Source: Styela clava (taxonomy: Eukaryota > Chordata > Ascidiacea > Stolidobranchia > Styelidae). From it: a stretch of 64,000 nt of DNA. The first letter of the stretch is position 1. Every line of letters starts with the position of its first letter. The translations under genes were made by a program, and so were the position numbers. Location of the stretch: NCBI RefSeq assembly GCF_964204865.1, contig NC_135251.1, positions 26,288,001 to 26,352,000 on the forward strand, read 5' to 3'. Positions 1,571-60,347 of this stretch are shown here, in pieces. Below the pieces are notes generated by a model, which worked only from the letters and a program-made list of their open reading frames with translations, was not told where the DNA came from and searched no databases.

Positions 1571-1572
1571 TG

Positions 1573-3060: not shown

Positions 3061-3068
3061 GTTTAGAG

Positions 3069-3385: not shown

Positions 3386-3393
3386 GTTTAGAG

Positions 3394-8749: not shown

Positions 8750-8907
8750 GCTCCAGAAGTATGTGTACCTTTATGGATGTAACTGATTTTTTTCGCCTAT
8801 TTTACATCAAGTTGTTAATTTAAGGGACTGAAACTTATGGGCATGGGGTATATTAACTTGGATAACACAAACAGTCTCCGAACTCGTAATAAAACTAATA
8901 TGAGTAA
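8750..8907 (+). repeat. Dispersed SINE-like repeat, copy 2, split by a hAT-like element
   Basis: Equivalent of 1573-1790. It is interrupted after 8907 by the 1645-bp insertion and resumes at 10553-10612. Confidence 0.7.
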
Positions 8908-13550: not shown

Positions 13551-13612
13551 TATTCAAGGATGATTTTGAGCCTGATTATGAAAAAGATCTGGAGGTTTGT
13601 ACAACATATTAA
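13551..13612 (+). pseudogene. 3' remnant of the acidic-protein gene in copy B
   Basis: Immediately right of a deletion breakpoint at about 13550, the reading frame keeps the acidic phrase DDFEPDYEKDLE and ends at TAA, aligning with the last codons of the gene at 6015-6404. The signal-peptide exon and most of exon 2 are missing, so this is a truncated pseudogene. It is not identical to copy A (Asp for Phe and Asn changes, and a longer tail). Confidence 0.7.
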
Positions 13613-15339: not shown

Positions 15340-15550
15340 TCCGGAAGTATGTGTACCTTTATGGATGTAACTGATTTTTTCGCCTATTTTACATCAAGTT
15401 GTTAATAAAAGGGACTGAAACTTATGGGAATGGGGTATATTACCTTGGATAACACAAACAGTCTCCGAACTCGTAATAGAACTAAATTGAGGAAAATCAG
15501 AATAAAATTATGGCCTAACCCTAACCTGGTACACATACTACTGGAGTACC
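15340..15550 (+). repeat. Dispersed SINE-like repeat, copy 3
   Basis: Uninterrupted equivalent of 1573-1790 in copy C, beginning near GTGCTCCGGAAGTATGT. Confidence 0.68.
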
Positions 15551-16892: not shown

Positions 16893-17144
16893 AAAATATT
16901 TTTGAATTTTATATGAATATAACCATTACAACAAACAAGAGAGCTATGCTCAAATATAATGACACGTAACGCCACATAGTGGTAAATTTTGATGACGTCA
17001 TACCACACAAAAAACGAATCCCATGCAACCATTGAATTGGAAATACATGGAACGATCTTCTCTCTCGTTTTGCGTTGTCTCGCCGCGGGATCATTTGATC
17101 GCCGCCATCTTGGCATTTATGCCACCAAAGATTCTTCGTGTTGT

Positions 17145-22215: not shown

Positions 22216-22830
22216 ATGGGGGCATATAAGTATATGAACGAGGTATGGCGCAAAAAGCAATCAGATGTCATGCGTTATCTTCTTCGCATTAGATCTTGGC
22301 ATTTCAGACAGCTTTCAGCCGTTCACAGAGCACCAAGACCCACTCGCCCAGAAAAAGCACATAAACTTGGCTACAAGGCAAAGCAGGGATTTGTTATCTA
22401 CCGTGTACGTGTTCGCCGAGGGGGTAGAAAGAGGCCTGTACCAAAAGGAGCAACTTATGGAAAGCCTGTTCATCATGGTGTGAATCAGCTCAAGTTTGCT
22501 CGGTCTCTCCAGAGCGTAGCAGAAGGTCGTGCTGGGCGTCATTGTGGAGCGCTTCGTGTATTGAACAGCTACTGGGTGGCTGAGGATTCAACTTACAAAT
22601 ATTTTGAAGTCATTATGATTGATCCAATGCACAAAGTAATTCGACGAGATCCCAGCATGAACTGGATATGTAAATCCGTCATGAAACATCGGGAACTACG
22701 TGGATTGACATCTGCGAGCCGCATGAGTCGTGGCCTTGGCAAGGGCCATAGGTTCAACAAAACTAAAGGTGGATCTATTCGAGCATCATGGTTAAGAAGG
22801 AATACTGTTCAAATGAGAAGGAAACGTTAG
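22216..22830 (+). CDS. RPL15: 60S ribosomal protein L15 (eL15), intronless
   Basis: 204 codons from ATG at 22216 ([19 protein letters not shown]) to TAG, the exact usual length of eukaryotic eL15. It matches the family along its whole length, including the [17 protein letters not shown] block, the [17 protein letters not shown] block and the basic C-terminus [11 protein letters not shown]. The product binds 28S rRNA in the large ribosomal subunit. The frame extends upstream of the ATG (to 22192) but the conserved start is at 22216. The coding region has no intron and no broken residues. It is either a genuinely intronless gene (possibly with an intron in the 5' UTR) or an intact retrocopy; no poly(A) tract follows the stop closely, which argues mildly against a fresh retrocopy. 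Confidence 0.97.
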
Positions 22831-25431: not shown

Positions 25432-25766
25432 GGTGACAGCACATTTGCACCCGCGTACATTTTCACCCATACATTTGCACCTGCATACTTTCGCACTCAT
25501 AGATTTTAGCACCCGCGGACATTCGCACCCATGTACATTTTCACCCACGTACATTGCACCCATGAACATTCACACCCACGAACGTTTGCACACATGTACA
25601 TTTGCACCCATAAACATTTGCACCCCTGTACATTTGCACCCGCGTATGTTTGCATCCACGTGCATTTGCACCCACGTACATTTTCACCCACAGGACACTT
25701 GCACCCACGTACATTTGCACACACAGACATTTGCACCCACGTATATTTGCTTCCATGAACACTCAA
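25432..25766. mobile_element. MITE expanded into a minisatellite (ACATTTGCACCCACGT units)
   Basis: Starts GGTGACAGCACATTTGCACC, clearly the terminal sequence of the MITE family above, and is flanked by perfect 8-bp duplications CTCAGTAT (25424-25431, 25767-25774). The interior is about 18 imperfect tandem copies of a unit of roughly 16-18 bp (ACATTTGCACCCACGT and variants). It lacks stop codons in several frames, so the open frames here are a by-product of the repeat rather than genes. Confidence 0.88.
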
Positions 25767-42396: not shown

Positions 42397-42733
42397 CATC
42401 TGTACAATGTTCTCAAAACCAAAATATCAGACACCGGTAAGCAAGGTAAGGTACTAAAGCTAACCCGTTAACCACCTTCGCTTGATGAGTTGACCATATC
42501 GAGTTGGCCGCCGTGACTTGTAGCCCTCACCCTATTATACGCGATGGTGCTGAGAAGTTCGAGTGAGTGATAGTCGTGCTCGTGTATAAATTAATGAATA
42601 TTTATCAAAACTGCTTCATAATTAACTTTAAATATATAAAATGTGCTTCTGAATAATATTGATACTCTCTACGGGGCGAGGCTAACTCGACAGCATTACA
42701 GCGGCTCCTGTAATCGGGTATGGTAGGTACCGG

Positions 42734-45090
42734 GGGTAGTTAAAAAATGGCTATGTCCCATATGTCCGCTATGTCCCTACTAAAATGGCTATGTCCGCTA
42801 TGTCCCTACTAAAATGGCTATGTCCCATCTAAAATTGCGTCTCCGATATTTTCCTACTAAAATGACTATGTCCGATATGTCCCTACTAAAATGACTATGT
42901 CCGCTATGTCCCTACTGAAATGGCTATGTCCGCTATATCCCTACTAAAATGACTATGTCCGCTATGTCCCTACTAAAATGACTATGTCCGCTATGTCCCT
43001 ACTGAAATGGCTATGTCCGCTATATCCCTACTAAAATGGCTATGTCCCCACTAAAATGGCTATGTCCCATCTAAAATTGCGACTCCGATATTTTCCTACT
43101 AAAATGACTATGTCCGCTATGTCCCTACTAAAATGGCTATGTCCCATCTAAAATTGCGACTCCGATATTTTCCTACTAAAATGACTATGTCCGCTATGTC
43201 CCTACTAAAATGGCTATGTCCCATCTAAGATTGCGACTCCGATATTTCCCTACTAAAATGACTATGTCCGCTATGTCCCTACTAAAATGGCTATGTCCGC
43301 TATTTTCCTACTAAAATGGCTATGTCCGCTATGTCCCTACTAAAATGGCTATGTCCCATCTAAAATTGCGACTCCGATATTTTCCTACTAAAATGACTAT
43401 GTCCGCTATGTCCCTACTAAAATGGCTATGTCCCATCTAAAATTGCGACTCCGATATTTTCCTACTAAAATGACTATGTCTCTACTAAAATGGCTATGTC
43501 CCATCTAAGATTGCGTCTCCGATATTTTCCTACTAAAATGACTATGTCCGCTATGTTCCTACTAAAATGACTATGTCCCTACTGAAATGGCTATGTCCGC
43601 TATATCCCTACTAAAATGGCTATGTCCGCTATGTCCCTACTAAAATGACTATGTCCGCTATGTCCCTACTGAAATGGCTATGTCCGCTATATCCCTACTA
43701 AAATGGCTATGTCCGCTATGTCCCTACTAAAATGACTATGTCCGCTATGTCCCTACTGAAATGGCTATGTCCGCTATATCCCTACTAAAATGGCTATGTC
43801 CGCTATGTCCCTACTAAAATGGCTATGTCCCATCTAAAATTGCGACTCCGATATTTTCCTACTAAAATGACTATGTCCGCTATGTCCCTACTAAAATGGC
43901 TATGTCCCATCTAAAATTGCGACTCCGATATTTTCCTACTAAAATGACTATGTCCGCTATGTCCCTACTAAAATGGCTATGTCCGCTATGTCCCTACTAA
44001 AATGGCTATGTCCCATCTAAAATTGCGACTCCGATATTTCCCTACTAAAATGACTATGTCCGCTATGTCCCTACTAAAATGGCTATGTCCGCTATTTTCC
44101 TACTAAAATGACTATGTCCGCTATGTCCCTACTAAAATGGCTATGTTCCATCTAAAATTGCGACTCCGATATTTTCCTACTAAAATGACTATGTCCGCTA
44201 TGTCCCTACTAAAATGACTATGTCCCTACTAAAATGGCTATGTCCCATCTAAAATTGCGACTCCGATATTTTCCTACTAAAATGACTATGTCCCTACTAA
44301 AATGGCTATGTCCCATCTAAAATTGCGTCTCCGATATTTTCTACTAAAATGACTATGTCCCTACTAAAATGGCTATGTCCCATCTAAAATTGCGACTCCG
44401 ATATTTTCCTACTAAAATGACTATGTCCGCTATGTCCCTACTAAAATGACTATGTCCGCTATGTTCCTACTAAAATGGCTATGTCCCATCTAAAATTGCG
44501 ACTCCTATATTTTCCTACTAAAATGACTATGTCCCTGCTAAAATGGCTATGTCCCATCTAAAATTGCGTCTCCGATATTTTCCTAATAAAATGACTATGT
44601 CCGCTATGTCCCTACTAAAATGACTATGTCCGTACTGAAATGGCTATGTCCGCTATATCCCTACTAAAATGGCTATGTCCCTACTAAAATGGCTATGTCC
44701 CATCTAAAATTGCGACTCCGATATTTTCCTACTAAAATGACTATGTCCGCTATGTCCCTACTAAAATGGCTATGTCCCATCTAAAATTGCGACTCCGATA
44801 TTTTCCTACTAAAATGACTATGTCCGCTATGTCCCTACTAAAATGGCTATGTCCGCTATATCCCTACTAAAATGGCTATGTCCCATCTAAAATTGCGACT
44901 CCGATATTTTCCTACTAAAATGACTATGTCCGCTATGTCCCTACTAAAATGGCTATGTCCGCTATATTCCTACTAAAATGTCTATATCTCTACTAAAATG
45001 GCTATGTCCCTACTTAAATGGCAAAGTCCTAAATGGCTATGTTCTAAAATTGCGATTCCGATTAGTTTCAACTAAAATAGCTATGTCTGG
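42734..45090 (+). repeat. Left terminal minisatellite array (77-bp higher-order unit)
   Basis: Built from three related blocks: a 29-bp unit (AAAATGACTATGTCCGC + TATGTCCCTACT), a 20-bp unit (AAAATGGCTATGTCCCATCT) and a 28-bp unit (AAAATTGCGACTCCG + ATATTTTCCTACT). Together they make a 77-bp higher-order repeat, mixed with extra copies of the 29-bp unit. It decays from about 44980 inward. No long ORF. Confidence 0.97.
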
Positions 45091-45350
45091 AATATCGGAT
45101 CAAAATTGATAGATTTATATCGAACATGATCATCACCACAAAATCAATTGTGACGTAGGGTTAAGAAAAGAGACTTTGAAATTAACATCAAATCAACTGT
45201 TACTTTGTATCTAGATTCTTGACTATAGATGCAATTTTTCAAGTTCTAATTCTGATTTAAAATTTGCACATTTTTAAAATCAACTATTCTAGAATGTCAA
45301 AATAAATTGAATGGTAGTAGTTAATATTTTGTTTAAAACTTACCTATAAG
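45091..45350. other. Inner flank of the left array
   Basis: AT-rich interior of the composite transposon between array and hAT relic. No ORF or repeat recognised. Confidence 0.4.
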
Positions 45351-45668
45351 GTAGATATCAAGGTGATCCAAACCCAGGCACGCAAGCCACATGTGGCCCG
45401 CCGCTTTATTATCTGTGGCCCGCCGCTTTATTATCTGTGGCCCGCGTCACATTCGGAGAGTAATCAAAAAATCGCATTTCGTGTTGTTTCGTAATAAAAT
45501 TGAATAGAAAAAACTTTTGACATTTTGTTACATCAATAATGTCACTGAATTGACTAGTGTTATGGCTAGCTGAGGCAACTAGCGAAGTTGAATGATGTGC
45601 TTGGCAGTCTAAATCGTTATCTGGCTTTCTATCTTTTTGTTCGGGAATATATGCTAACAATATATATA

Positions 45669-46049
45669 CCGTGTTTCGCCGAAAATAAGACCTACCCTAA
45701 AAATAAGACCTAGCCTAAATTTTAGGATTGATTTTAATATAAGTCCTCCCTAATAAGACCTAGTCAATAACGCGAATTTTTTTTTTACCTGGTCGATAGC
45801 AAGAAATCTCTCCCATACGTTATAAATGATTACCTAATCTAAAACGTGTGGGAGAGGAAAACGTGTCATTTAAGTAAATGGATATCGGTTTCAATATTTT
45901 TTTTTTTATTTGAAAATCTCCTAATTCTGTACTTTCTAATTTTGTTTTTGATGAATAAAATTATAAGACATTCCCCGAAAATAAGCTCTAGTGATATTTT
46001 TCGAAAGAAAATTGAAATAAGACACTGTCTTATTTTCGCGGAAACACGG
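45669..46049. mobile_element. MITE with CCGTGTTTCGCCGAAAATAA ends, TA target
   Basis: Inverted termini CCGTGTTTCGCCGAAAATAA and TTATTTTCGCGGAAACACGG, flanked by TA on each side. AAATAAGACCTA-type repeats lie inside. Ends of this kind are widespread in invertebrate and vertebrate genomes. Non-coding. Confidence 0.82.
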
Positions 46050-46106
46050 TAGGCATCATAGAAAACTAAAAATCGAATGCGGATTCTATTAGCCTGTGAT
46101 GGCTAT

Positions 46107-46324
46107 TGTTATATCTTTATAACAAGTAATGAATACAGACTCATTACAAAACTGCACGCGATTTATTTGGACATCCGTCCGTCAACTTAGTTCAAAACAA
46201 AAGACCACTAAACAGAGGAAAAACAACTTACGGCACTAGACAGCATTGTGACGTAACAATATAGCACACAAGCAGATAGAGTAGTAAACAAGCTATGATA
46301 GTAAGCTCAACATAATATATAACA
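46107..46324 (-). repeat. 3' LTR of the gypsy element
   Basis: 218 bp, TG...CA ends, immediately preceded on the minus strand by the polypurine tract. Should contain the polyadenylation region of the element. Confidence 0.95.
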
Positions 46325-46544
46325 CTCCTTCCCCCCTTTTTGGAAATATTGTACAAATTCAAGAACCAAATATTAAAAATAAATGTACAACACAATTACC
46401 CGAATTCCAACATTCCCAATCAAATGGTATAAAATATTGCAAAAACAAATATACAAGCAACGTACAGAATTTCACAAAGAAACTAAGAAATTCAAAGAAA
46501 CTTTTACAACTATAATTCTGTCCAGTACAAAATTATAAAACTTC

Positions 46545-49500
46545 TTATAGAGATAGTTTTTCTGGCGGTTTTGATATTCTGCCAGATCTTGTTTTATAAG
46601 GTATGTTTGAATTACTGGACGATTCTGGAAAATTAGGAACTGGGTCTACATTGTCTCTGTCATTTTGAGATTCATCAGTCTCTTCAATAGCAGTAGAGGT
46701 AGGAGTTGAATTTCTATCTCCCACATCAACATCAGGTATTCCTGTTGGAATTGCAGCTGGTATTCTCTCACTCATTCTAAAATCTTGATTCCCTTCACGT
46801 ACCATTACATCATCAGCAGAAAATCGATGTCGAATATGATCAAGATGACGTCTAAAAATTCTTCCATCGTTCAAACGAACACGACACATTTGACCCATAA
46901 CTTCAGTTACTGTGGCAGGTAACCATTTGAAACGAGATCCAACGACTTCTGTAATAAAAACTGGGTCATCAATGTGAAAAGTTCTTATTATTCCACTTGG
47001 AACATTCTCTGCTGACTTCTTCAAACGTGATGAAGGTGCGATTAGATCCAGATGCGTTCTAATCTTACGACGAAAAAGTAATTCCGACGGAGTCTGACCA
47101 GTCGTTGTATGTGGTGTAGTTCGGTATTTAAATAACCAGCGAACAAGTCTGACTGACAAAGATGCTGGTGCTTGTTTCTTCAATCCAAGTTTAACTTGTT
47201 TTACCATTGATTCAGCTTGGCCATTAGAAGCCGGATGTCTCGGTGGTGAAAACAAGTGCTTCACTCCATTTGCCTTTAGAAATGTTGCAAATTCGTCTCC
47301 TGCAAAACAACCAGCGTTGTCAGTGACTACAACTAGTGGTAATCCATGTGTAGCAAATGAAAGTCTGACTTTTTCAATAGTTTCATGAGCAGAAACTGAC
47401 GATGTAATCCACACATCTGGCCATTTGCTAAACGCATCAACAATAACAAGAAGCATTTTCCCATCAACTGGACCGGCATAGTCCATATGTATTTTTTGCC
47501 ATGGACCATTAGGATAAGACCATGGGCTAGCAGGAACTTGAGGTGCACTGGGACGTAACTGTTGACACAAACTGCAAGATTTCACCAACTCTTCAATATC
47601 AGCATCAACCCCAGGCCACCATACATGATTACGAGCAATTCTTTTCATAGAACAAATACCAGGATGACCATCGTGAAGTAATTGCAACACTTTCTGTCTT
47701 CCTTGTGGCGGAATAATTACTCGACAACCCCAAAATAAACAATTTTCATGGACACTTAGTTCCGTCTCTTTGCTTCTATAAATTTGTAATTCTGGGTCTA
47801 TGTCAGAAGATTTTGGCCAGCCCATTTGAGTATGATGCATAACTGCGGACAGTACAGGATCTCTTCTCGTCCAAGACTGAATTGCATCAACTTTAACAAG
47901 GGTAGAATCGACTGCTTCAAGAAGATTCACTACATCACCACAAGGCGGTATATAATCCGGTTTATCAGGCAAAGGCAAACGACTTAGTGCATCGCTATTG
48001 GCTTGGTTTTTACCTGGAACATACACTAATTCGTATTGATATCCATCAAGTAATACTTTCCAACGGATCATTCTCGGTGGAGCTGCATCAGGAAGTGGCT
48101 TATTCTTCCCAAGTAAACCGAGAAGTGGCTTGTGATCAGTTTCCAAAACAAACGGTCTTCCATATAAAAATGAATGGAACTTTGTAACAGCGAATACTAG
48201 AGCTAATCCCTCTCTATCCAATTGGCTATAATTACGCTCTGGTTTTGACAAAGATCTGGATGCAAAAGCCACAGGACGTTCTCCTTCCTGCGTTATTACA
48301 GATAAAACTGCTCCGATTCCATAAGGACTGGCATCTGCAGAAACAATGACGGCGGCATTTCCGTCAAAATGAGCAAGGCATGGAGCATTACACAATAGCG
48401 ATTTCGTTTTCTTAAAAGCTTCCACTTGCCTTTTATTCCAGTGCCATCGAACATTCGAACGAAGAAGTTCATACAAAGGAGCAGCAACAGTTGATAAATT
48501 TTTAATGAATTTACCATAATAATTAAGCATCCCCAGATATGAGCGCAACTGATGTATATTTTGTGGTTCTGGGGCATCCAGAACAGCTCTCAGATTATCT
48601 TCAGTTGGTTGAACACCAAGTTTATTTATACGATATCCAAGATAAGTAATTTCTGAAACCATCCATTTACATTTGTTTGAATTAATTTTTAGACCTTCAT
48701 TTGTAAGACGCTTGAAAACTTCTTCCAATCTGGCTATGTGTTCTTTATCAGAAGAACCGGTTACTCCAATATCGTCTTGGAAAACACCTACACCTGCTAT
48801 GTCACCCAGCAGTGTTTCAAGATATCTCTGGAATATAGCTGGGGCACTTGATATTCCATAAACAAGACGATTTGTCGTGAATAATCCCTTATGTGTATTA
48901 ACTACTGTGTACTTTTGACTCTCTTCTGCCAATGGTATCTGCAGATATGCCTCTTTCAGATCAATAACAGAGAATTTTTCCCCACCAGCAAATTTAGTCA
49001 ATAATTCATCCACCTTTGGCAATGGATACTGCTCAAGACGACTTGCTTTATTTACAGTCAAGTCATAACTTCCACAGAGCCGAACTGACTTCTGATCAGC
49101 TTTTAATACGGTAACCATAGGTGCAGCCCAATCGGATGTTTTACATGGCTTCAAAACACCGATTTCAACTTGTCTATCAAGTTCAGCTTCAACCAATTCT
49201 TTGAGTGCAAGAGGTACAGGTCGTGGTTTATAAAATTTAGGCTTAACGCTGTCATCAATCTCCAATTTGGCTTCAGTTTTTGCACAACCTAATCCAGGTG
49301 AAGACAATTCAGGATACTTATCAAGCAGTGTACTGATTTTAACATCAGAATAGTTAATTTTGAAAATTGAATTCCAATCAAGTTTGATATGTTTCAACCA
49401 ATTTCTCCCCAGCAATGGTTTACAGCGGTTACTATTTCTTACCACAGTGATTGGCAATACCATTGGGTTACCATTTTGATACGTTACAGTAACATCCCTT

Positions 49501-50618
49501 TCTCCCTCTACTGGAATAGACTCCCCCGTGTATGTAGACAGTTTAACATCGGTGTGGTTCAATTCTGCTTTTGGCCACAACTTTTTATATTGCACTAAAG
49601 ACATGACAGATAGTGTAGCCCCTGTATCTACTTCCCAAGAAATGTTTTTGCCATCGACGTCAAGATCAAGATAGATTGGATTGCATTTCACACCCACATT
49701 GTTATTTTGCACGGACGACACTGTATGATGTAATTCGTATGATGAACCAGAGTTTTCATTCGTTTCACTTTCGCCCGGCGTATTCTTATCACCAGCGATA
49801 CAACATTGAGAATTACATTGCTTACTTCTCTGGCCGTGTCTATACTGACTTGATTTCTTGAATCGACACACACTTTTGGTATGGCCCTTTTTACCACAAC
49901 AAAAACACTTGGCATCTTTAAATGGACATTCACGGGCAAAGTGCTTAGAACTATCGCAGCGAAAACATCTAAGAGACTTACCCCCTCTAGGCGAAGAAAG
50001 CTGTGGTGCTCTAGGCTTGGATTTGCTATCGGAGTTCTTTTCACGCTGCACATCAATTTCATATAATTTCTCTGGTCTCGTGTGACGTTGTTCAATTTGT
50101 TTTGTTTGTTGCTTTGCTTGTTCTAGACTTTTTGCATAATCCAGAAGTTCTCGAAGAGACATACGCTGCTGTAGAGCTTTTTCCCTAACTCTAGAATCAC
50201 ATCCACCAGAAATAACTTGCTGTTTTATTTCACGATCAGCATCCGTAAAATCACAGGTAACAGCTAATTTACGCAAACGTGCCACATAAGTATCAATATT
50301 TTCGCCAAATTTCTGTTTTGCATTCCTGAAAACATCACATTCAAAATCAATGTTTATCTTTGGCACGAAATAATTATCCAATTTCTTAACGGTGTTGGTA
50401 TAAACATTATCATTTTCATCTGCATTCGGCGGTTCGGGCAAGTTCTCATACAGGTCAAAAACTTCAGGTCCCGCAAAATGTAATAATAACGCTTTCTTTC
50501 TCTCTGCGTTGTCAATCGACATGGCGAGGCACATGTTTTCAAATTGTCGCAGCCATTGTTGCCATTCGTCTGGGCGATTAATGTTGAATTGCGCAACTTC
50601 CAATGATGCTGACGTCAT
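46545..50618 (-). CDS. Gypsy Gag-Pol polyprotein, 1357 aa
   Basis: A single frame from ATG at 50618. Domain order: capsid-like Gag (about 1-210), two CCHC zinc knuckles (CFRCDSSKHFAREC at about 218, CFCCGKKGHTKSVC at about 235), retroviral-type aspartic protease (VDTGA, about 331), reverse transcriptase with the active-site motif FQDD (about 613-616), RNase H (SADASPYGIGAVL), integrase with an HHCC zinc finger (HPGICSMKRIA...CSLCQQ) and a D,D,E core (MDYAG about 1046, TDNAG about 1099, GQAES about 1136). All catalytic residues I can check are present and there is no frameshift, so this copy may still be able to move. Gag and Pol in one frame is common in several gypsy clades. No envelope gene is present. 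Confidence 0.97.
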   Translation of the reverse strand: MTSASLEVAQFNINRPDEWQQWLRQFENMCLAMSIDNAERKKALLLHFAGPEVFDLYENLPEPPNADENDNVYTNTVKKLDNYFVPKINIDFECDVFRNAKQKFGENIDTYVARLRKLAVTCDFTDADREIKQQVISGGCDSRVREKALQQRMSLRELLDYAKSLEQAKQQTKQIEQRHTRPEKLYEIDVQREKNSDSKSKPRAPQLSSPRGGKSLRCFRCDSSKHFARECPFKDAKCFCCGKKGHTKSVCRFKKSSQYRHGQRSKQCNSQCCIAGDKNTPGESETNENSGSSYELHHTVSSVQNNNVGVKCNPIYLDLDVDGKNISWEVDTGATLSVMSLVQYKKLWPKAELNHTDVKLSTYTGESIPVEGERDVTVTYQNGNPMVLPITVVRNSNRCKPLLGRNWLKHIKLDWNSIFKINYSDVKISTLLDKYPELSSPGLGCAKTEAKLEIDDSVKPKFYKPRPVPLALKELVEAELDRQVEIGVLKPCKTSDWAAPMVTVLKADQKSVRLCGSYDLTVNKASRLEQYPLPKVDELLTKFAGGEKFSVIDLKEAYLQIPLAEESQKYTVVNTHKGLFTTNRLVYGISSAPAIFQRYLETLLGDIAGVGVFQDDIGVTGSSDKEHIARLEEVFKRLTNEGLKINSNKCKWMVSEITYLGYRINKLGVQPTEDNLRAVLDAPEPQNIHQLRSYLGMLNYYGKFIKNLSTVAAPLYELLRSNVRWHWNKRQVEAFKKTKSLLCNAPCLAHFDGNAAVIVSADASPYGIGAVLSVITQEGERPVAFASRSLSKPERNYSQLDREGLALVFAVTKFHSFLYGRPFVLETDHKPLLGLLGKNKPLPDAAPPRMIRWKVLLDGYQYELVYVPGKNQANSDALSRLPLPDKPDYIPPCGDVVNLLEAVDSTLVKVDAIQSWTRRDPVLSAVMHHTQMGWPKSSDIDPELQIYRSKETELSVHENCLFWGCRVIIPPQGRQKVLQLLHDGHPGICSMKRIARNHVWWPGVDADIEELVKSCSLCQQLRPSAPQVPASPWSYPNGPWQKIHMDYAGPVDGKMLLVIVDAFSKWPDVWITSSVSAHETIEKVRLSFATHGLPLVVVTDNAGCFAGDEFATFLKANGVKHLFSPPRHPASNGQAESMVKQVKLGLKKQAPASLSVRLVRWLFKYRTTPHTTTGQTPSELLFRRKIRTHLDLIAPSSRLKKSAENVPSGIIRTFHIDDPVFITEVVGSRFKWLPATVTEVMGQMCRVRLNDGRIFRRHLDHIRHRFSADDVMVREGNQDFRMSERIPAAIPTGIPDVDVGDRNSTPTSTAIEETDESQNDRDNVDPVPNFPESSSNSNIPYKTRSGRISKPPEKLSL

Positions 50619-50774
50619 TATTCTGTTAACAGTAGCAATCGTGCTTCAACGATGCTCAAATAATTTACTGCCGTTTAATTCAATATAATAACAGGCCTTG
50701 GGTTCCCAGTCCAGTGAATGCTGTTCACTATGAATATCCAAAGTCACTGATTATGCTGCAATAATCAGTTCTAA

Positions 50775-53733
50775 TAGGCCGCGAGCCGAGGCCATTTATC
50801 TTTCAGTTTCGTAGCGCACATCAGGTAACTACCTGAAAATGATTTTAAAATGTTCCTTAGAAATTTAGTAACAAATATTGCCTTGTTCCCACTTCCAAAA
50901 GTTGCACGTTTTACAGAAAAGACGCTTTTACTACAATAAATATGTGTTACCATCTGTCCTATTTTCTCTGCTTTTCCGGTATCATGGGCCAATGAACGCA
51001 GACTTCTGCACGACGTAACAGTCAAGTTAGTCAGCTTTAGGTGGATCCCCAGTGGTCGGATGAATATCAGATGTACTCAACTGCTCGCTTTTGCGTTGAG
51101 TCTGTGAGTAGCCTTTCCATAGTTTTTTTCAGTTACCGGTAATATTAGTCCAGTTATTCTAAGGAGGTGTTGAAAAGTATAGGTAAGATATTAAACACTT
51201 GTATATCCTTGCCATAAATAGCAATTTCAGTTGAGCACTAGCTCATAAGACGTTGTTAAATAGGTACCGTACGGTGCGGTAACTCCAAGGAAGGCTAGAC
51301 CTAGAATAATATGTCACAAACAACGATATTTTCTGGCTTGCATGAAATGTTTATGATTAATTTAATGACTCTTCTTGACTATTCAGCAGACTTATACTAC
51401 TATATAGGCCACAGCATATTTGGAAATAGAAATGAATGGCTGTTTCTGTAATGCACGGTTGTGTGAAAGAGAAGAAATTAATCAATTTTACTAATGTCGG
51501 TTGGTCTAAATCTAAATTCATAGAGTCGACAAGAACCTGGGAAGCAATGATAAGTTATGCCGGAGTGGAAAGAAAGGTAGCATTGGAAATGATTGAGAGG
51601 TGAGAAATGAAGTTGTAGATAAACAGTTGATGTTTCATAATATAGTCTATAGTCCATACTCATACTGTCATAGGACATTTCAGACTGTGATATATCAAAA
51701 TTTAGTGTAGATATAGTCTAGTAATGGTATGCAAACACTGCTGGACTGTAGAACATGAAATGAGCATATATACGCTCATTTAGTACATCAGATAAAATGC
51801 ATTATGTATTCAAGGTATTAGTTAGTATTTAGGGGTATTTTTAAAATCATGCTGCTCCAAATATTATTTTCTTCCTTATTTTAGATACTGTACTACAAAA
51901 GAAAACGGCAATGTTCCACCAATCCGACCTAACGCAGGCTCTGATCCCTGCTGCTATCAGTGCTATAAAATGGATTAAACAAGAAGTCTTGAAGCTTAAA
52001 GGTATATGAGAATCATAATAGTTGCAAACAGCTTAGATGGGCTATTCATATTGAAATACTTTAGCACTTTTCTGCAATTGGAACTGCCCATCAAATTCAT
52101 GTTGGAGACTTCATTGAGATTTTCAATTCATTTTTTTCCCTCGACTATGAAGATCTTTTGAGGTTAACGAGGTATTAATAAATAAAGCTGAGGAATTTGA
52201 AGAGGATATGAAGAATGTAAATGATACCAGGGCACGTCTATTTAACACTGTCAAACATAAGGATTATACTCTCCACCCAACAATGATTCACTGAAGAAGC
52301 ATGTGGCCCTCAAATCAGTTCTTGAGTTGGCAAACTGCAAAGAAAAATAGTCAAAATAATTTATGAAAGTGTGCCAAAATCAACTTAAATTGCACAGATT
52401 TTTGTTTTTGTATTGACTGCAGAAATCACAGTACACCTATAGAGGAAAAGTCGATTTTTGAGATAGTGGATTTCGAAAACAATTCAGAAGAAAGTGAATT
52501 ATATATTACAGTTGATTTAATAAGTATCATACATTTGTTTTTTTTTTCGGACATTTGTTAGTGTCGTAGTCCTGTTTCTAGAAATATTATTGCCTTTGTT
52601 CAAATACATAACCACATAAACTAAAAAAAGATTAATTGTAAATTGTAATATTTCTGTTCACTATGTTATGTACATATTGTACATTCATTTAATTTTCTTG
52701 ACTTTTGCGGTAAATTTCTAAGTGAGAAATAACTGATTTATTTGTGTTTTCGTGCTCACGATGTTAATTTGTGACTTCATTGCTTAAAAATAAATACGTT
52801 TGATACTTGATAGCTTCTATAAAATGGATGTAGCTTTTTATGCTGTTTTTGTTGTAAACTGCTTGTGGTTATTACATAAAATTTATTCTCAAATGTGAAT
52901 CCGCGTTGTTGGTGTCGCTGCTTTCGAGGTCACTCCCGACTCCTGTCACACAATTAAAGTATTTTTTGTTGTTGGTTACATGTATGCCATATTTTTCGTA
53001 ATCTACCTAATAAATTATGATTGACTGAGGAAGTCCGATTTTGGTCAGGCAAAACATTACAGGAATACATTTGTGTTAGTGTGCTGTAGGGCTCTCGAAT
53101 TGTATAGTTCTTATCTATGCGTTGTAAACTTATGGTTATTGAGTTTCCGGGAACCTCTTATATTCAATTTCGCACCAGGATTGTGGAACAAGCTGTAATG
53201 CGTTCATTATGTTCGTTTTCACACTAAACTGAAGAATTTATTTAGTTACCAGATGTGCGCTACGAAACTCATTTTCTGGGCGTTTTCATGGTTTCGTCTC
53301 ACGGCCCATATCCGTGGTAAGGATCTACAAGTGTTTAATAATTTACTTATACATTTTTCAACAACGTCTTAGCATAACTTAACTAATAATAACTAAACAG
53401 GGCTATGGAAAGCCTGCCCAACTCAGCGCAAAGTCGAGCAGAAATAACTAATATTCATCCGCTCGCTAACAGCTGGTTTAATTCAATTGTTACGTCATGC
53501 AGAAGTCATTGTTCAGTGCCGAAAATGTAGAGAATATAGGACAGATCGTAGCACATATTTCTTGTAGTAAAAGCGTCTTTTCCGTAAAACGTGCAACTTT
53601 TGGAAGTGGGAACAAGGCAATATTTGTTACTAAATTTTTAAGGAACATTTTAAAATCATTTTCAGGTAGTTACCTGATGTGCGCTACGAAACTCACTTTC
53701 TAGGCGTTTTTCAGGGCCTCGGCTCGCGGCCTA
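50775..53733. mobile_element. 2.96 kb DNA transposon with about 360-bp inverted repeats, inside the gypsy leader
   Basis: Ends TAGGCCGCGAGCCGAGGCC and GGCCTCGGCTCGCGGCCTA. Similarity between inverted ends continues for about 360 bp (50775-51135 and about 53395-53733). The flanking triplet TAA is present on both sides (50772-50774, 53734-53736), compatible with a PIF/Harbinger-like TAA target, though TA is an alternative reading. Inside, short frames such as 51451-51603 (MHGCVKEKKLINFTNVGWSK...) and 51900-51980 (..NVPPIRPNAGSDPCCYQCYK) resemble pieces of transposon-borne proteins of the type GYHRxCYxxFT, but no intact transposase is seen. Probably non-autonomous. Confidence 0.8.
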
Positions 53734-53854
53734 TAACTCCGTCGCAGTCCAGCGACTGTTCTCTTATCTATCCTCGAAATTAAGCTGTAACTTCGATATA
53801 TTTTCCTTCCTTCCCCAAGAAATGGCTACAAAACGGCACAAAAAGGCTTTTTAA

Positions 53855-53867
53855 TCCTCGTCGCCAA
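53855..53867 (-). other. Primer-binding-site candidate of the gypsy element
   Basis: The minus strand reads TGGCGACGAGGAT, 3 nt inside the 5' LTR. The initial TGG complements a tRNA CCA 3' end; tRNA identity not determined. Confidence 0.6.
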
Positions 53868-53869
53868 TT

Positions 53870-54087
53870 TGTTATATCTTTATAACAAGTAATGAATACA
53901 GACTCATTACAAAACTGCACGCGATTTATTTGGACATCCGTCCGTCAACTTAGTTCAGAACAAAAGACCACTAAACAGAGGAAAAACAACTTACGGCACT
54001 AGACAGCATTGTGACGTAACAATATAGCACACAAGCAGATAGAGTAGTAAACAAGCTATGATAGTAAGCTCAACATAATATATAACA
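53870..54087 (-). repeat. 5' LTR of the gypsy element
   Basis: 218 bp, one substitution from the 3' LTR; contains the promoter of the element by analogy with the family. Confidence 0.95.
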
Positions 54088-54422
54088 GCTATGTCTGAGT
54101 GATAACTATGTATTTGCACAATAAAAGTGTTTGTTTTGTATTGCACTGTTTACCTATTCTTGGCACTATTGTGGCCCGCGAACAATGCAAAAGTAATTTT
54201 GTGGCCCGCGAGGCGACAACCTTGGACCACCCTGTGAATATATATTCCGTATTAGTGACGTCACAAAGGACATTTCCAAGCTAGTTTTCCCAACGTTGCC
54301 ACATAGTATGACTATACCGTAAAGAAGAAAGAGACAAGGAAATTATCAAAAATTAAGATAGCATTTTTAAAGTGCTTGTTGGACTGCGTATAATTTAGAA
54401 TTTATTTAGCAAAACACATTTA

Positions 54423-54533
54423 TTGTTTATGCTGGGAAAATTCATGAGTGTGGTATCTTTTTATTGCGAGTTGGCACCATGTTGTATTTGTCGACGCTGG
54501 CACAACGATTTTTTTCATTTCTGCCGGATCGAG
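54423..54533 (+). CDS. Candidate upstream exon of the PHD/MULE transposase
   Basis: An open frame of 37 codons, rich in Cys and His near its end (CCICRRWHNDFFHFCRIE), stops at a strong splice donor GAG|GTATGT. It is in phase 0 with the acceptor ATCAG|TCA at 55540 that opens the main transposase frame. If used, the intron (54534-55540) would contain the whole hAT-like element 54548-55535. An alternative is that before the hAT insertion another frame ran straight through this position (ATG at 54537), with no intron. The ATG at 54423 is weakly supported. Confidence 0.35.
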
Positions 54534-54547
54534 GTATGTATCAGTCA

Positions 54548-55535
54548 CAGGGTTGCCATATTGGCTTTTTTAACGCCAAATTTGCCATTTTTGGCTTTTT
54601 TCAAACGCGTTTGGCGTCAGAATTTCCGTTTGGCTTTTTGGCGTTTTTTTGGCTCTTTTTCAAGTCTATTATAGTGTCTATTATTAAAATCATATGAAAT
54701 ACGATATTTAGTGTGTAACAACTGAACAATACCGGTAGCCTATTACCTGATCTTATTAGCTACCGGTACTTAACATTAGGATTTCCTGGAGCATCGATTT
54801 CCTTGTTTGTTACATTAACTCTTAACCCTGTAACCATACCCAATAAAAAATAATTGCAGTTTCTGCAACTGCTCAGACAGATGTTCAAGCAGGGTTGTAA
54901 ACATTGCCTCGTTTTTATAGTTTTGCGTGTTATTTGTCAGTTTTACGTTCCGATTCCAAAAAATAGTTGTACCCGTAACTGTTATAACTTAATTTCATTA
55001 TGCCTGATATGGTTTATGTGAGCTTTAGTTTAATTCTGCAATTGCAGTAACGATGTGATTAACTACGCTAAAATTACTGAATTAGATATCAGTGGTCCAC
55101 TTGCGAGCGGCAGAGGGTTAGATAATTTTTTAATAAAATTGATGGTTTATAAATTCTAAAAGTAAAAAAATTTTCAATAGTAAAGTACGATATAGGGAGA
55201 CTTTTTTAAGGTATATCACAAGTTTAAGTAGAAACATGTAGGTATATTACATACTGACAGACTGAAGCGGCACCCTGTATTGTATATATTGAATGGTAAA
55301 ATAAGGCTGTCCGCTTGATATTTATTTTACTTTCTAAAGTTCTATAGGAACTTTACTTTCTATTTGTGTGCCTCACTGAATGAACTGATGGCTCTACATC
55401 ATCATCAGTATGTTGCCAAGGGCTTAAAATCTCACAAATCATGGGGCTTTTGTACTTAGTAAAATTGTTGGCTTTTTCTGGCTTTTTTTATGTCTTGATT
55501 TGGCTTTTTTTGATCGCTGGGGTCTGGCAACCTTG
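54548..55535. mobile_element. hAT-like element with CAGGGTTGCCA ends, inserted next to the PHD exon
   Basis: Starts CAGGGTTGCCATATTGGC and ends GGGGTCTGGCAACCTTG (imperfect inverted repeats), flanked by perfect 8-bp duplications ATCAGTCA (54540-54547, 55536-55543). GGCTTTTT-rich repeats near both ends. 988 bp, no ORF. The insertion splits the 5' part of the MULE transposase locus. Confidence 0.92.
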
Positions 55536-55540
55536 ATCAG

Positions 55541-58336
55541 TCATCATACAAATGCTTGTTTTGCGGTTTGAATTGTTCAACTGGTTGCATTGAATGTTCT
55601 GGTTGTGAACGCTGGTGCCATTTCGATTGTGCCCGGATAGAAACCGAATTACGGCAACAATGGGGAGAAAAACATCTATCTTACTATTGTAAATCTTGTG
55701 TTTTTCTTGACCATGGCTATGATTTCGAGGTGTCGATGAGAAGAGTTATGAACAAAATTGATCGTGTGAGTTTTGATACCAAAAATGTATATAAATTCCT
55801 GAAAGAAATAGCTGAGCAGGAGCAAATGCTGATGGACGCACATAAAGTAAAGCTTCCTGAGTTTCCAGAATCGAGGAATTTTCAGGGTGAATTAGATGAA
55901 CCGTCCAATACTCTGTTACAACAATTGTCGCCATCGGTTTTAGATGAATATGAACCGATATATACGATAGGTGATGGTTTGTTTGGTACACAGGATCATT
56001 TCCTTCATCTTCGCTTCTTAACTATTATTGAAATTCTGTCTTATCCCCAGTGTTACGACATCGAGAGTACAAATTTACATCCAGTCCTTAAAGACTTTAG
56101 GATCGTTACTCTGGATCTGAAAAACGTACTACACTGTGCAGCGACAATTGGCAGCCATTGTGGGATGGATTGCTTATTGGCTCTTAGCGCCGCATTGAAA
56201 GTTTCATACAACTCCTTACAGCCTTCTACCGGCCCAACAGACATGCGATCTCCCGCTTATTCAATAAGTATCCAGGGTAGGGAGGTTTCTTCGAGACGGG
56301 GTCCATATTTTCACATAATGTGGACTACAACAAATGTTCCTGCAAATTTTATTGATTTCGTACCCAATCACTTTGTTCCTTTATTAAAGAGACACCTTCG
56401 ACAAAGTCAAAAATTGTCCTTGAATACTTGCATTGATCTGGAGGGACCAGGTCTGGAGATTTCAAATTGCCACACTGAAGAATCTGAAAATATGATATCC
56501 AGTATGATTTATGCGCAGACTGACCAAAACACTGTAGACGAGGGCTGGCATGAGCTTCCGTTTGGTATTTTCTTGGGTATTTCAGAATTGTTGAAAATAT
56601 TCAAAAACAAAACCGTGAAAGTTAGTCCTAGAATACCAACGGGGGAGAAAAACAACTGTTATTTCATAGTTGATCACAACGAAAACATACGCAGAAAAGA
56701 GAAAAAAGTGAAGCAAATTTTCGAAGACGATTGCGGAAGCTGGAAACAAATCAATTATACCTCCGCTCTGTATTTACTTCAAAATGACGAGGTTAAATAT
56801 ATTTATGAGAAAGGGGGGAGATTTTGCATAAGATCGCGCCACGGAAAAAAACTGTCATATCCAGTTATTGAGCCACAACCCAAAACGAGTGAAATATGGA
56901 GAATTGGACGTTATTATGCTCGGCAACCGACTGGCTATGAACGACGAATCACTTGGATCGATGGCCACATTGGTATGAAGGTGGCAGTAGTGGAATACAA
57001 GGGCATATTTCCTGGTCATACACCCCATGGAAATGCAAAGATAAACCAACAGGCGTACATAAGAACATCAGCAGACGTTATGGAAAATATTATATCTAAA
57101 TGTGAAGGCGTTACTGCAAAAAAACTTTATGTTAATCTTCAACAACATGCGGAGAAAAACCCCAGAAATCTAAGACAAATCGAAAATGCGAGGTTCAATC
57201 AAAAAAAGCAGGGAGCAGGAATAAAAATATATCATAAAAATTACGCTGACGAGATATTAGAGGTCATTAACATGGCGCAAACAAACGAATTTGTACAAAA
57301 AGTAACCCACAGTAAAATGGAATCTGTTAATGTACCTTTATTCTTTGAAGAGCAATGCTTGGATCTGAAGCGGTTTTGTTGCTCAGGTAAAACTATTCTT
57401 GGGATTGATAAAACTTTCAATTTAGGACGAGTCTACGTCACAGTTACAGTTTTCAAAAATCTTTCCTTGCTGTCATGTAAATCTGGTGAACACCCATTGT
57501 TTTTCGGTCCTATATTTTTACACCACAAATCTGACAAATCCACATTTACAGAATTTTTTACCAACATAAAGTCCAAACTTGGTAGAAAGTTGGATAACTT
57601 GACCGTTGGTACTGATGACGAATCGGCCCTACACGGTGCTTTCACATCTTCTTTCCCGGATTCAACTCATGTCCTTTGCAGCAGACACATGAGGGAAAAT
57701 TTAATAAATTATCTTAAGGATAAGGTCGGTACTAGTGAAAACCTCCGGAGATCAATTGTTAGTGAAATTTTCGGTTTGTTTCATTGCCAAAATGAAAAAG
57801 AGTTTGATTCAAAGACTGAAGAAGTCGTATCGTACTGTAAAACCAGGTGCAAAGGTATTGTTGGATACCTCAAAACAAGATTTCTTCCGTTATTTAAAAA
57901 TAATATTTGGCAAAAAAAGTCACATACAAATGGATACCTGTGGACAAATAACAACAACGAGTCCTTAAACCATGTATTGAAATGCGTTGCCAATTGGAGA
58001 CAACATAAACTTCCTGATTTAATTCACATGCTTGGTGATATAATCAAGTCGTCGTATACCGATGTGAGAAAGGCACTGTTGAAGCAAGGGCCATACACGT
58101 TGTACGGACCATATGCCCAATTTTCGTTGTCCGTATACACTTGGATGCTGATGACGGAAGTCGAACGAAATAAATATTTTAAAGATTTTTTACAACGTGT
58201 TCAGTTGTCTTCCCCTGATAAATGTCCTCCTCGTCTTTGTTCATCAACTGATGGTAAATTGCAAACAATATCTCCATCACAAACAGCTGGATTGAAAAAG
58301 GGAGAAAAAAGGAAGAGAAAGACTCGAAAAATATAA
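55541..58336 (+). CDS. MULE-type transposase with N-terminal PHD finger
   Basis: About 930 aa of continuous frame; residue numbers here count from the Leu codon at 55556. The frame opens at the likely acceptor ATCAG|TCA and reads SSYKCLFCGLNC, completing a PHD-type C4HC3 finger (CIECSGCERWCHFDC...YYCKSC, residues 1-50). A middle region with SHCGMDCLLALSAAL is weakly OTU-like. Then come KNPRNLRQIENAR-type wording and the MULE DDE core: GIDKTF (D618), TDDESAL (D687/D688), LCSRHM (C708, H711) and NNNESLNHVL (E802). The tail is basic (KKGEKRKRKTRKI), a likely nuclear signal. It should cut and paste the surrounding element. No internal stop, but the 5' end is disturbed by a hAT-like insertion, so the true start and whether it is still expressed are unsure. 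Confidence 0.88.
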   Translation, partial: SSYKCLFCGLNCSTGCIECSGCERWCHFDCARIETELRQQWGEKHLSYYCKSCVFLDHGYDFEVSMRRVMNKIDRVSFDTKNVYKFLKEIAEQEQMLMDAHKVKLPEFPESRNFQGELDEPSNTLLQQLSPSVLDEYEPIYTIGDGLFGTQDHFLHLRFLTIIEILSYPQCYDIESTNLHPVLKDFRIVTLDLKNVLHCAATIGSHCGMDCLLALSAALKVSYNSLQPSTGPTDMRSPAYSISIQGREVSSRRGPYFHIMWTTTNVPANFIDFVPNHFVPLLKRHLRQSQKLSLNTCIDLEGPGLEISNCHTEESENMISSMIYAQTDQNTVDEGWHELPFGIFLGISELLKIFKNKTVKVSPRIPTGEKNNCYFIVDHNENIRRKEKKVKQIFEDDCGSWKQINYTSALYLLQNDEVKYIYEKGGRFCIRSRHGKKLSYPVIEPQPKTSEIWRIGRYYARQPTGYERRITWIDGHIGMKVAVVEYKGIFPGHTPHGNAKINQQAYIRTSADVMENIISKCEGVTAKKLYVNLQQHAEKNPRNLRQIENARFNQKKQGAGIKIYHKNYADEILEVINMAQTNEFVQKVTHSKMESVNVPLFFEEQCLDLKRFCCSGKTILGIDKTFNLGRVYVTVTVFKNLSLLSCKSGEHPLFFGPIFLHHKSDKSTFTEFFTNIKSKLGRKLDNLTVGTDDESALHGAFTSSFPDSTHVLCSRHMRENLINYLKDKVGTSENLRRSIVSEIFGLFHCQNEKEFDSKTEEVVSYCKTRCKGIVGYLKTRFLPLFKNNIWQKKSHTNGYLWTNNNNESLNHVLKCVANWRQHKLPDLIHMLGDIIKSSYTDVRKALLKQGPYTLYGPYAQFSLSVYTWMLMTEVERNKYFKDFLQRVQLSSPDKCPPRLCSSTDGKLQTISPSQTAGLKKGEKRKRKTRKI

Positions 58337-58493
58337 TTTTTCATTAATGACTATTAAATATGTAGACCTTGATAGAGTCGGCCCTTGACACAATTCGTTA
58401 ATATGCCTAAGCAATAAACTTATTTTAATTGCATCAAGACATATACTAGCTTTTTTTCTCAGATATGCATGGCTATATTAAAAATGTAGTAGA

Positions 58494-60069
58494 TGACATA
58501 GCCATTTTAGTAGGGACATAGCGGAAATAGCCATTTTAGTAGGGACATAGCCATTTTAGTAGGAAAATATCGGAGTCGCAATTTTAGATGGGACATAGCC
58601 ATTTTAGTACGGACATAGTCATTTTAGTAGGAAAATATTGGAGTCGCAATTTTAGATGGGACATAGCCATTTTAGTGGGACATAGCCGTTTTAGTAGGAA
58701 CATAGCGGACATAGTCATTTTAGTAGGAACATAGCGGACATAGTCAGAAAATATCGGAGTCGCAATTTTAGATGGGACATAGCCATTTTAGTAGGGATAT
58801 AGCGGACATAGCCATTTTAGTAGGGACATAGTCATTTTAGTAGGAAAATATCGGAGTCGCAGTTTCAGATGGGACATAGCCATTTTAGTAGGGACATAGC
58901 CATTTTAGTAGAGACATAGCCATTTTAGTAGGGACATAGTCATTTTATTAGAAAAATATCGGAGTCGCAATTTTAGATGGGACATAGCCATTTTAGTAGG
59001 GACATAGCGGACATAGTCATTTTAGTAGGGACATAGTCATTTTAGTAGGAAAATATCGGAGTCGCAATTTTAGATGGGACATAGCCATTTTAGTAGGAAA
59101 ATATCGGAGTCGCAATTTTAGATGGGACATAGCCATTTTAGTAGGGACATAGCGGACATAGCCATTTTAGTAGGGACATAGTCATTTTAGTAGGAAAATA
59201 TCGGAGTCGCAATTTTAGATGGGACATAGCCATTTTAGTAGGGACATAGCCATTTTAGTAGGGACATAGCGGACATAGTCATTTTAGTAGGAAAATATCG
59301 GAGTCGCAATTTTAGATGGGACATAGCCATTTTAGTAGGGAAATAGCGGACATAGTCATTTTAGTAGGAAAATATCGGAGTCGCAATTTTAGATGGGACA
59401 TAGCCATTTTAGTAGGGACATAGCGGACATAGTCATTTTAGTAGGGACATAGTCATTTTAGTAGGAAAATATCGGAGTCGCAATTTTAGATGGGACATAG
59501 CCATTTTAGTAGGGATATAGCGGACATAGCCATTTTAGTAAGGACATAGCGGACATAGTCATTTTAGTAGGAAAATATCGGAGTCGCAATTTTAGATGGG
59601 ACATAGCCATTTTAGTAGGGACATAGCCGTTTTAGTGGGAAAATATCGGAGTCGCAATTTTAGATGGGACATAGCCATTTTAGTAGGGACATAGCCGTTT
59701 TAGTAGGAACATAGCGGACATAGTCATTTTAGTAGGAAAATATCGGAGTCGCAATTTTAGATGGGACATAGCCATTTTAGTAGGGATATAGCGGACATAG
59801 CCATTTTAGTAGGGACATAGTCATTTTAGTAGGGACATAGCGGACATAGTCATTTTAGTAGGAAAATATCGGAGTCGCAATTTTAGATGGGACATAGCCA
59901 TTTTAGTAGGGACATAGCCATTTTAGTAGGGACATAGCGGACATAGTCATTTTAGTAGGAAAATATCGGAGTCGCAATTCTAGATGGGACATAGCCATTT
60001 TAGTAGGGACATAGCCATTTTAGTAGGGACATAGCGGACATATGGGACATAGCCATTTTATAACTACCC
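58494..60069 (-). repeat. Right terminal minisatellite array, inverted
   Basis: The same 29/20/28-bp blocks and 77-bp higher-order unit as the left array, in reverse complement (GGACATAGCCATTTTAGTAG...), about 1.58 kb. The outermost segment next to the end matches the outermost segment of the left array most exactly, as expected for a terminal inverted repeat. Confidence 0.97.
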
Positions 60070-60347
60070 GGTACCGGTACCGTATACAAATTTTGCAGAG
60101 TTTTTCGAATATCTTCAGTCGTTTTTGATATCATAGATTTCAAATGTTTAAGCCAGTTTATATATAATCTGAATTAATTTTAGCAACACCGCACGGAAAA
60201 TATCACAATTCTCATGATCATTAGAGCGTAACCATTGCACTAACCAATCATTCATCCGCGCGCTGTGCTTTGAATGCTTGTGGCTTTGTTGATATTTGGC
60301 TTTGGGGGTCGGGAGGTTTTGCTGGTTCCGTTAATTCTGCCATTGCA

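Follow-up and report, generated by a model that had tools for sequence, protein, structure and literature searches.

The window analysed here is a stretch of 64,000 nucleotides from the ascidian Styela clava (G000:C2:26288001-26352000; contigs are numbered C1, C2 and so on in an assembly of 376.6 Mb and 379 contigs). It contains a transposon of the Mutator superfamily, 17,336 bp long (42734-60069), which encodes a Mutator-like (MULE) transposase and whose inverted ends are kilobase-scale minisatellite arrays. Its features, in window positions, are:

42726-42733, no strand: left target-site duplication (TSD) GGTACCGG, same sequence as 60070-60077
42734-42779, + strand: left outer end module GGGTAGTTA...CTA, 46 bp, 45/46 match to the right end
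42734-45100, + strand: left arm, array of 20/28/29-bp units, 2,367 bp, 71 units of the 20/29-bp type
46102-46106, no strand: left copy of the 5-bp TSD GCTAT of a Ty3/gypsy element
46107-54087, - strand: nested Ty3/gypsy long terminal repeat (LTR) retrotransposon, 7,981 bp, with a 1366-codon open frame on the - strand
54088-54092, no strand: right copy of GCTAT
54548-55535, no strand: hAT-like insertion with ends CAGGGTTGCC...GGCAACCTTG, 988 bp
55514-58336, + strand: transposase open frame of 940 codons with PHD-like, OTU, beta-rich middle and MULE domains; OTU motif DGNC deleted
58482-60069, - strand: right arm, inverted array of 20/28/29-bp units, 1,588 bp, 48 units of the 20/29-bp type
60070-60077, no strand: right TSD GGTACCGG, copy of 42726-42733

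Ends, insertions and transposase of the window element

The element begins at 42734, between ...GGTAGGTACCGG and GGGTAGTTAAAAAATGGCTATGTCCC..., and stops at 60069, between ...GGGACATAGCCATTTTATAACTACCC and GGTACCGGTACC... Compared over their outermost 46 bp, the arms agree at 45 positions. An earlier interpretation, made from the letters of the window only and here called the sequence-only reading, had described matching outer ends and a perfect 8-bp duplication, and both are confirmed to the base.

Nearly all of both arms is accounted for by units of three lengths. The 20-bp unit is CTAAAATGGCTATGTCCCAT with variants, the 29-bp unit is the 20-bp unit with an additional 9-bp block of the GCTATGTCC type, and the 28-bp unit is CTAAAATTGCGACTCCGATATTTTCCTA. 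From their sequences all three look like variants of a single ancestral unit, and the end module itself appears to include an array unit. The arms align as an inverted repeat with 79% identity over 1,728 columns. When up to one mismatch is allowed, motif GCTATGTCC is found 105 times on the + strand and never on the - strand of the left arm, and 65 times on the - strand and never on the + strand of the right arm, with two occurrences in the 13.4-kb interior and three in the 42.7 kb to the left of the element. The arrays do face each other in opposite orientation, as had been proposed.

Two other mobile elements lie nested in the window copy. The LTRs of the Ty3/gypsy element (46107-46324 and 53870-54087) are 99.5% identical, and its target GCTAT is uninterrupted in two of the copies listed below (C13 and C2:17.16M). 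Inside it, 50774-51214 and 53315-53734 are inverted relatives of each other (77%). The hAT-like insertion is flanked by the 8-bp TSD ATCAGTCA (54540-54547 and 55536-55543), is absent in the C10 copy, and has no open frame that reaches 150 codons. It sits directly after the codons for MYQS, splitting the probable start from the body of the transposase, while in six copies (C4, C13, C19, C2:17.16M, C6, and C17) the frame runs through MYQSSYK without the insertion. With both insertions and one TSD copy of each taken out, the window element would measure about 8.4 kb. The transposase frame also lacks ten codons (a 30-bp deletion), among them those of DGNC, which is kept in C4, C13, C19, C2:17.16M, C2:14.49M, and C17. 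Because of the insertion after MYQS and the loss of the DGNC codons, the window copy can in all probability no longer make an intact transposase; it is a damaged relic. The sequence-only reading was right about the ends and the transposase; it had missed the OTU domain, both nested insertions and the fact that this copy is damaged.

The open frame between the arms is a real transposase frame, with a match to Pfam MULE at E 7.9e-6 (26.7 bits, slightly below the cut-off of 27.6). The corresponding values are E 1.1e-5 and 26.2 bits for the C4 copy, 28.1 bits, above the cut-off, for the relative L017, and E 0.011 and 16.6 bits, a weak match below the cut-off, for the relative L022. The Pfam OTU match is below the cut-off in the C4 copy (E 0.009) and above it in two relatives (2.4e-6 and 5e-6). 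For PHD the window protein gives E 0.074, below the cut-off (0.07-0.08 across the proteins scanned), and the cysteine/histidine spacing was judged by eye to be C4HC3-like. FLYWCH gave no Pfam match at E <= 1 in the transposases scanned. The putative D, D, E triad (D638, D707, and E822) is invariant in an alignment of four sequences.

An AlphaFold2 model of the window protein was made from 11 sequences, with a mean predicted local distance difference test score (pLDDT) of 70 and a predicted template modelling (TM) score, pTM, of 0.39. A Foldseek search with the model matched its catalytic half to the IS256-family transposase ISCth4 (E 1.8e-6). The best structural match to OTU folds had E 1.4e-3; OTUD3 was matched with TM by target of 0.64 and E 0.015. 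The first 60 residues, which include the PHD-like part, are poorly modelled (pLDDT about 39-47). Membership in the Mutator superfamily follows from the MULE-type DDE catalytic domain, and the length of the TSD also falls within the range of about 8-10 bp typical of MULEs.

The named database relatives of the transposase come from Ciona intestinalis, Branchiostoma lanceolatum, and Mytilus coruscus, and a search of a phage collection gave no match. One relative, P0001 (1477 amino acids), has four tandem beta-rich domains (DDCGxW ... PQP; counted by eye) of the kind found once between the OTU and MULE parts of the window transposase; MULE is its sole Pfam match at E <= 1.

Copies, empty sites and mobile ends

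Comparing the transposase with the genome in six frames yielded 53 matches (49 of 156 candidates scored), among them nine further close copies whose DNA is 92-98% identical to that of the window over the aligned parts. Array units are found near all ten, in the C1 copy as a degraded remnant only. Seven are complete with both ends:

42734-60069 of the window: window copy, TSD GGTACCGG
C4:14975606-14983478: C4 copy, TSD ACGGCAGA
C13:12878341-12886495: C13 copy, TSD CCTAAGTT
C19:15490053-15497379: C19 copy, TSD CACCGTAC
C2:17160311-17171340: C2:17.16M copy, TSD CCGCGGTC
C10:9639821-9646499: C10 copy, TSD ATATCGAG
C17:7671561-7696784: C17 copy, TSD ATTGTGGC

Three copies are incomplete: C6 has the left end alone, C2:14.49M the right end alone, and in C1 no end was found. 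All seven complete copies end in the same module, and the first 25 bp of the left end module are present, with at most three mismatches, at both ends of the other six. The further copies with GGGTAGTTA ends, 8-bp duplications and variable arrays for which the sequence-only reading had called are thus present. A perfect 8-bp TSD lies exactly outside the arrays in 7/7 cases, which bears out the claim that the minisatellites are the inverted ends of the element. The arms are its mobile ends, with the target duplication directly outside them and a conserved terminal module, GGGTAGTTATAAAATGGCTATGTCC, whose inner part can be recognised by its sequence as an array unit.

Empty sites were sought with a composite query of the joined flanks of eleven sites, for which 40 of 2,489 candidates were scored, all 40 of them in the C19 part. 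The C19 copy sits in a repeat, and 40 relatives match the joined flanks through the junction, with identities of 96-100% (150-base query); for six, all 136-137 matched bases are the same. The two that were read carry one CACCGTAC each, compared with two at the filled site, so that empty sites with a single duplication exist for this copy.

The 77-bp unit gave 745 matches (40 of 177 candidates scored), and all 150 that were listed fall within nine element loci (C19, C17, C13, C10, C6, C4, and three on C2), a listing in which diverged free arrays would not appear. A genome in which the arrays occur mostly as free satellites without the ends, which would have spoken against the claim, is thus not what these matches display. 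Nor do the listed matches include an instance of the dispersed satellite DNA that, in the sequence-only reading, such a transposon might seed. It could still be argued that independent satellites flank a MULE by chance, or that a MULE inserted into a satellite, since bulk tandem arrays of the unit do exist, as the number of matches shows. However, the position of the TSDs in all two-ended transposase copies, the empty sites of one copy and the location of all listed unit matches make this scarcely credible, and for the complete copies examined it was rejected on the TSDs and the empty sites. That the arrays are mobile ends, taken as a structural statement, is next to certain.

Across the genome, a 22-bp end pattern with up to three mismatches gave 41 + 46 = 87 matches, and its reversed control 8 + 11 = 19. 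Of the 87, 36 match exactly and 14 with one mismatch, and these 50 include 11 facing pairs within 30 kb. Together with C4:4651225-4653504 and three weaker pairs they make up the 15 end pairs that were read, in addition to six single ends and two same-direction pairs. Eleven of the 15 have perfect 8-bp TSDs, two near-identical loci have 9 bp, and two have none. Pairs without a detected transposase, or otherwise unusual, are:

C3:175462-182728: end pair, no transposase match, TSD GTATGCTA
C3:1068451-1073399: end pair, no transposase match, TSD ATTCCTGG
C4:4651225-4653504: end pair without detected transposase, TSD CTTCTAGT
C13:1206376-1210787: end pair, no transposase match, TSD GCCTCAGC
C10:7551794 and C18:10822797: near-identical loci with a common 9-bp TSD, TTATTTGAA, and 1 and 4 recognisable units at the two sides
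C14:13979938-13981457: two back-to-back arms spanning 1.52 kb, without interior and with an end on either side
C8:8854532-8854612: end pair without a perfect TSD

The first four have perfect 8-bp TSDs; the two C3 loci and the C13 locus are called transposase-less from the lack of a match in the six-frame search alone. Since such end pairs exist, copies without transposase are presumably mobilised in trans. The C14 locus is the one arms-only, non-autonomous copy of the kind known from foldback elements, and it supports the earlier suggestion of a foldback-like element.

A few other arrangements of ends were seen. On C6 (locus L068; 12563983 and 12564971) two end modules in the same orientation lie 988 bp apart with near-identical outer flanks, which looks like a tandem duplication of flank, end, and array. 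In the C2:14.49M copy (L045; 14499391 and 14500603) two internal end modules join array DNA exactly at the terminal base; they lie in terminal segments, 980 and 1,212 bp long, that are repeated in tandem. At this one locus an end could have inserted into an array, with a duplication following. A variant end, GACTAGTTATATAATGGCTATG, is listed at seven places on C8, C9, C13, C14, and C19, and on C8 and C13 two of these face outwards about 6 kb apart; it possibly belongs to another repeat family.

Elsewhere in the window, several segments of 0.5-1.7 kb within positions 1-17000 are repeated at 86-96% identity in rearranged order. An unbroken open frame at 22216-22827, either a gene or a retrocopy, encodes the ribosomal protein eL15. 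The protein shares 93% identity with its counterpart in Microcosmus squamiger and 84-86% with the ones in Ciona, Clavelina, and Phallusia, as befits an ascidian host. A 16-bp minisatellite (ACATTTGCACCCACGT) of about 19.5 copies lies at 25441-25750, within an open frame of 152 codons.

Array turnover and the role of the repeats

In the seven complete copies the left arms measure 1.07-5.90 kb and the right arms 0.61-2.88 kb, with 18-169 units per arm, while the coding DNA of the other six is 96-98% identical to that of the window. Arm length thus varies far more than coding sequence, and the long, inverted, length-variable arms of direct tandem repeats are those of a foldback element. The longest is the left arm of the C17 copy (5.9 kb, 169 units), which has a dominant higher-order period of 106/212 bp and belongs to a copy that has kept both ends and the TSD. 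It supports the amplification in situ that had been suggested for the arrays, and looks like a step towards a satellite taken within the element.

Left and right arms differ in their history. The mean proportion of shared 50-mers is 0.41 between left arms (28 pairs), higher than the 0.20 between the left and right arms of one copy (8 pairs), and 0.24 between right arms (45 pairs; about 0.35 over 28 pairs once the degraded C1 and C6 are omitted). One unit variant, CTGAAATGG...CTATATCC, occurs in 7/8 left arms and 0/10 right arms. The inner boundary is common to six of the eight left arms (C6 has an altered form and C19 a different one) and exactly common to five of the ten right arms, most others having variants of it. 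Because of the 50-mer sharing, the side-specific variant and the inner boundaries, the arms are distinct lineages that are inherited as separate parts and not homogenised against each other. Gene conversion driven by the palindrome might have been thought to homogenise the two arms within each copy and so maintain the arrays, since the arms are inverted relatives that could pair, and left and right arms of the same copy are slightly more similar than those of different copies. This difference is, however, hardly any (0.20, n = 8, against 0.18, n = 72), and the unit variant keeps to its side. Conversion between arms was therefore rejected as the main homogeniser, and we regard it as highly improbable.

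As to what the repeats do, we lean towards the explanation that the long inverted ends of this Mutator-superfamily transposon are arrays of a short transposase-recognition unit, with binding as the predicted step. The PHD-like/OTU/MULE transposase would recognise the repeated unit at many sites per arm, pair both ends, cut at GGGTAG, and insert with an 8-bp stagger, and slippage or unequal exchange inside single arms would lengthen and shorten the arrays. By analogy with related systems, the repeats are likely to be transposase-binding sites.

It is also quite possible, if less expected, that the arrays are passive, so that a repeat expansion hitch-hikes inside a short functional end of which only the outer 25-46 bp or so matter for transposition and the rest is neutral. 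The outer module does recur almost unchanged while arm lengths span 0.6-5.9 kb, the two near-identical 9-bp-TSD loci have few recognisable units, and the C17 copy has in its left arm the kind of regular higher-order array that unequal exchange makes. On the other hand, the seven complete transposase-bearing copies retain at least 18 units at each end. In Galileo of Drosophila, moreover, the repeats are reported to bind the THAP domain of the transposase (PMC3688188). Two other families in the same genome further speak against passive arrays, having similar ends built from unrelated repeats, and in one of them, C10:8.54M, the tip motif is again the repeat motif.

These families were found among transposase relatives at 28-77% identity, of which C10:8.54M, the C5/C220/C13/C14/C18 family and C10:23.39M were examined. 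Six near-identical copies of the C5 family were compared (99.7-99.9% over 4.6-4.7 kb; one on a 38-kb contig), and its transposase has 33% protein identity to that of the window element. The C5 copy, the sole one read to its ends, has GGGTGTTGTCAAAAACTGAAT at both sides and a perfect 9-bp TSD, TTCTATTCG, and in each arm a 10-bp repeat is present about 28 times (70-71% matches) and a 123-bp repeat 2.3 times. In C10:8.54M the inverted ends are about 0.97 kb long (93% identity over 972 columns), and the TSD is imperfect. These ends contain 166-bp repeats, and the repeat motif CCGGAACGGA, which also occurs near the very tip, is found ten times in each arm (up to one mismatch) and nowhere else in the 10.8 kb. 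Both are OTU-MULE families with inverted ends of unrelated tandem repeats. More tentatively, an animal Mutator-like clade might exist with an OTU-type (deubiquitinase-like) domain of its own and with ends marked by a minisatellite that is specific to the family and present in tens to more than a hundred copies. The repeat would be swapped from family to family and the architecture kept, and the arrays would then be fast-evolving selfish satellites lodged in a transposon and moved by it.

Several observations weigh against repeats as recognition units. The C10:7551794 and C18:10822797 loci, with their 1 and 4 units, mean that many units may be unnecessary, or that the remainder has decayed, and the C14 locus has no perfect TSD. 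In the third family, C10:23.39M, 416-bp tandem repeats are found on the left side only, within the 8 kb read. No DNA-binding domain was identified with confidence, as the PHD match is below the Pfam cut-off and the N-terminal part is poorly modelled. None of the copies read has a wholly undamaged frame, and the longest (C4) ends 13 codons before the end of the window copy. The uniformity of the array units speaks for recognition units, with 16 of 17 positions at least 90% constant in 460 left-arm units and at least 94% in 508 right-arm units (picked with up to five mismatches; the ninth position is at 63-65%), but it could come from recent homogenisation of the arrays instead of selection.

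Relation to known elements and significance

Long inverted arms of short tandem repeats are found in the FB element of Drosophila and the foldback (TU) element of the sea urchin. Both hosts are also named as having foldbacks in the paper on Tetris, a foldback-like element of Drosophila virilis that has 220-bp tandem repeats inside its terminal inverted repeats (TIRs) and 8-10 bp TSDs, and whose repeats also occur in kilobase-size satellite-like arrays (PMC4079207). Tetris has no known transposase, whereas the window element has one inside and free satellites of its unit were not seen among the matches listed. Galileo is likewise foldback-like with long TIRs, and its authors note that repeat binding is untested for the repeats of Foldback and Phantom (PMC3688188); its transposase belongs to the P superfamily, which is unrelated to that of the window element.

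Within the Mutator superfamily, Tm1 of root-knot nematodes (PMC3169594) and Muta1 and its relatives of Aedes aegypti (PMC5225508) have short tandem repeats in the TIRs or close to them. Their TSDs measure 8-9 bp, and non-autonomous derivatives are known. Subterminal repeats of 9-15 bp are described for 10 of 12 Aedes long-TIR families, and Muta1, whose TIRs each hold nine 12-bp repeats, is able to transpose in yeast (PMC5225508). In contrast to the window element, Tm1 has 1-9 units, mostly of 14 bp, and Muta1 nine units in a TIR of 145 bp; their transposases have 496 and 504 amino acids, and the accessible descriptions mention no OTU domain.

Rehavkus, as described in a survey of MULEs, encodes a MULE-related transposase that has a PHD finger and carries a minisatellite ahead of the 3' TIR; its TSDs are 9 bp, it is listed only for Arthropoda and Annelida, and an OTU domain is not mentioned (PMC6446971). 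In Rehavkus-1_TC of Tribolium (9.5 kb) the inverted termini contain a satellite unit of 164 bp, mostly as 5 and 8 monomers (PMC10218199). The window element shares the minisatellite at the 3' terminus and has one at both termini; it differs in the 8-bp TSD of all seven complete copies, the ascidian host, the OTU domain, and the 18-169 units per arm, while the related C5 family has a 9-bp TSD as in Rehavkus. This comparison is one of published descriptions, not of transposase sequences, and no Rehavkus name appeared among 3 and 14 protein-database matches to the transposase. The element is a candidate for Rehavkus proper, with a shorter TSD and a weak PHD match. Phantom (MULE group 20) is given in the survey as having Tunicata among its hosts, 8-10 bp TSDs, a zinc finger listed as none, FLYWCH, or SWIM, and, in aphids, a minisatellite after the transposase frame (PMC6446971). 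An assignment to Phantom was dropped for lack of a FLYWCH match, kinship being judged by description in a survey that also lists FLYWCH-less members.

Minisatellite termini in PHD-type MULE relatives are thus already known from Rehavkus (PMC6446971; PMC10218199), as are foldback TIRs in MULEs (Tm1; PMC3169594) and satellite growth from foldback repeats (Tetris; PMC4079207). In the literature searched, largely by title and in passages of some papers, no MULE transposase with an OTU domain and no such element in an ascidian was found, and the term OTU does not occur in the MULE survey (PMC6446971). That survey reports limited evidence for MULEs in chordates, apart from one sequence from Ciona savignyi (PMC6446971).

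The element of S. clava ties a kilobase minisatellite to a mobile element at base level, by TSDs and empty sites, in a group for which one survey had little evidence of MULEs. This genome holds three OTU-MULE families that share an end design but not the repeats used in it, and the natural series of arms, from 18 to 169 units, makes the purpose of foldback repeats testable.

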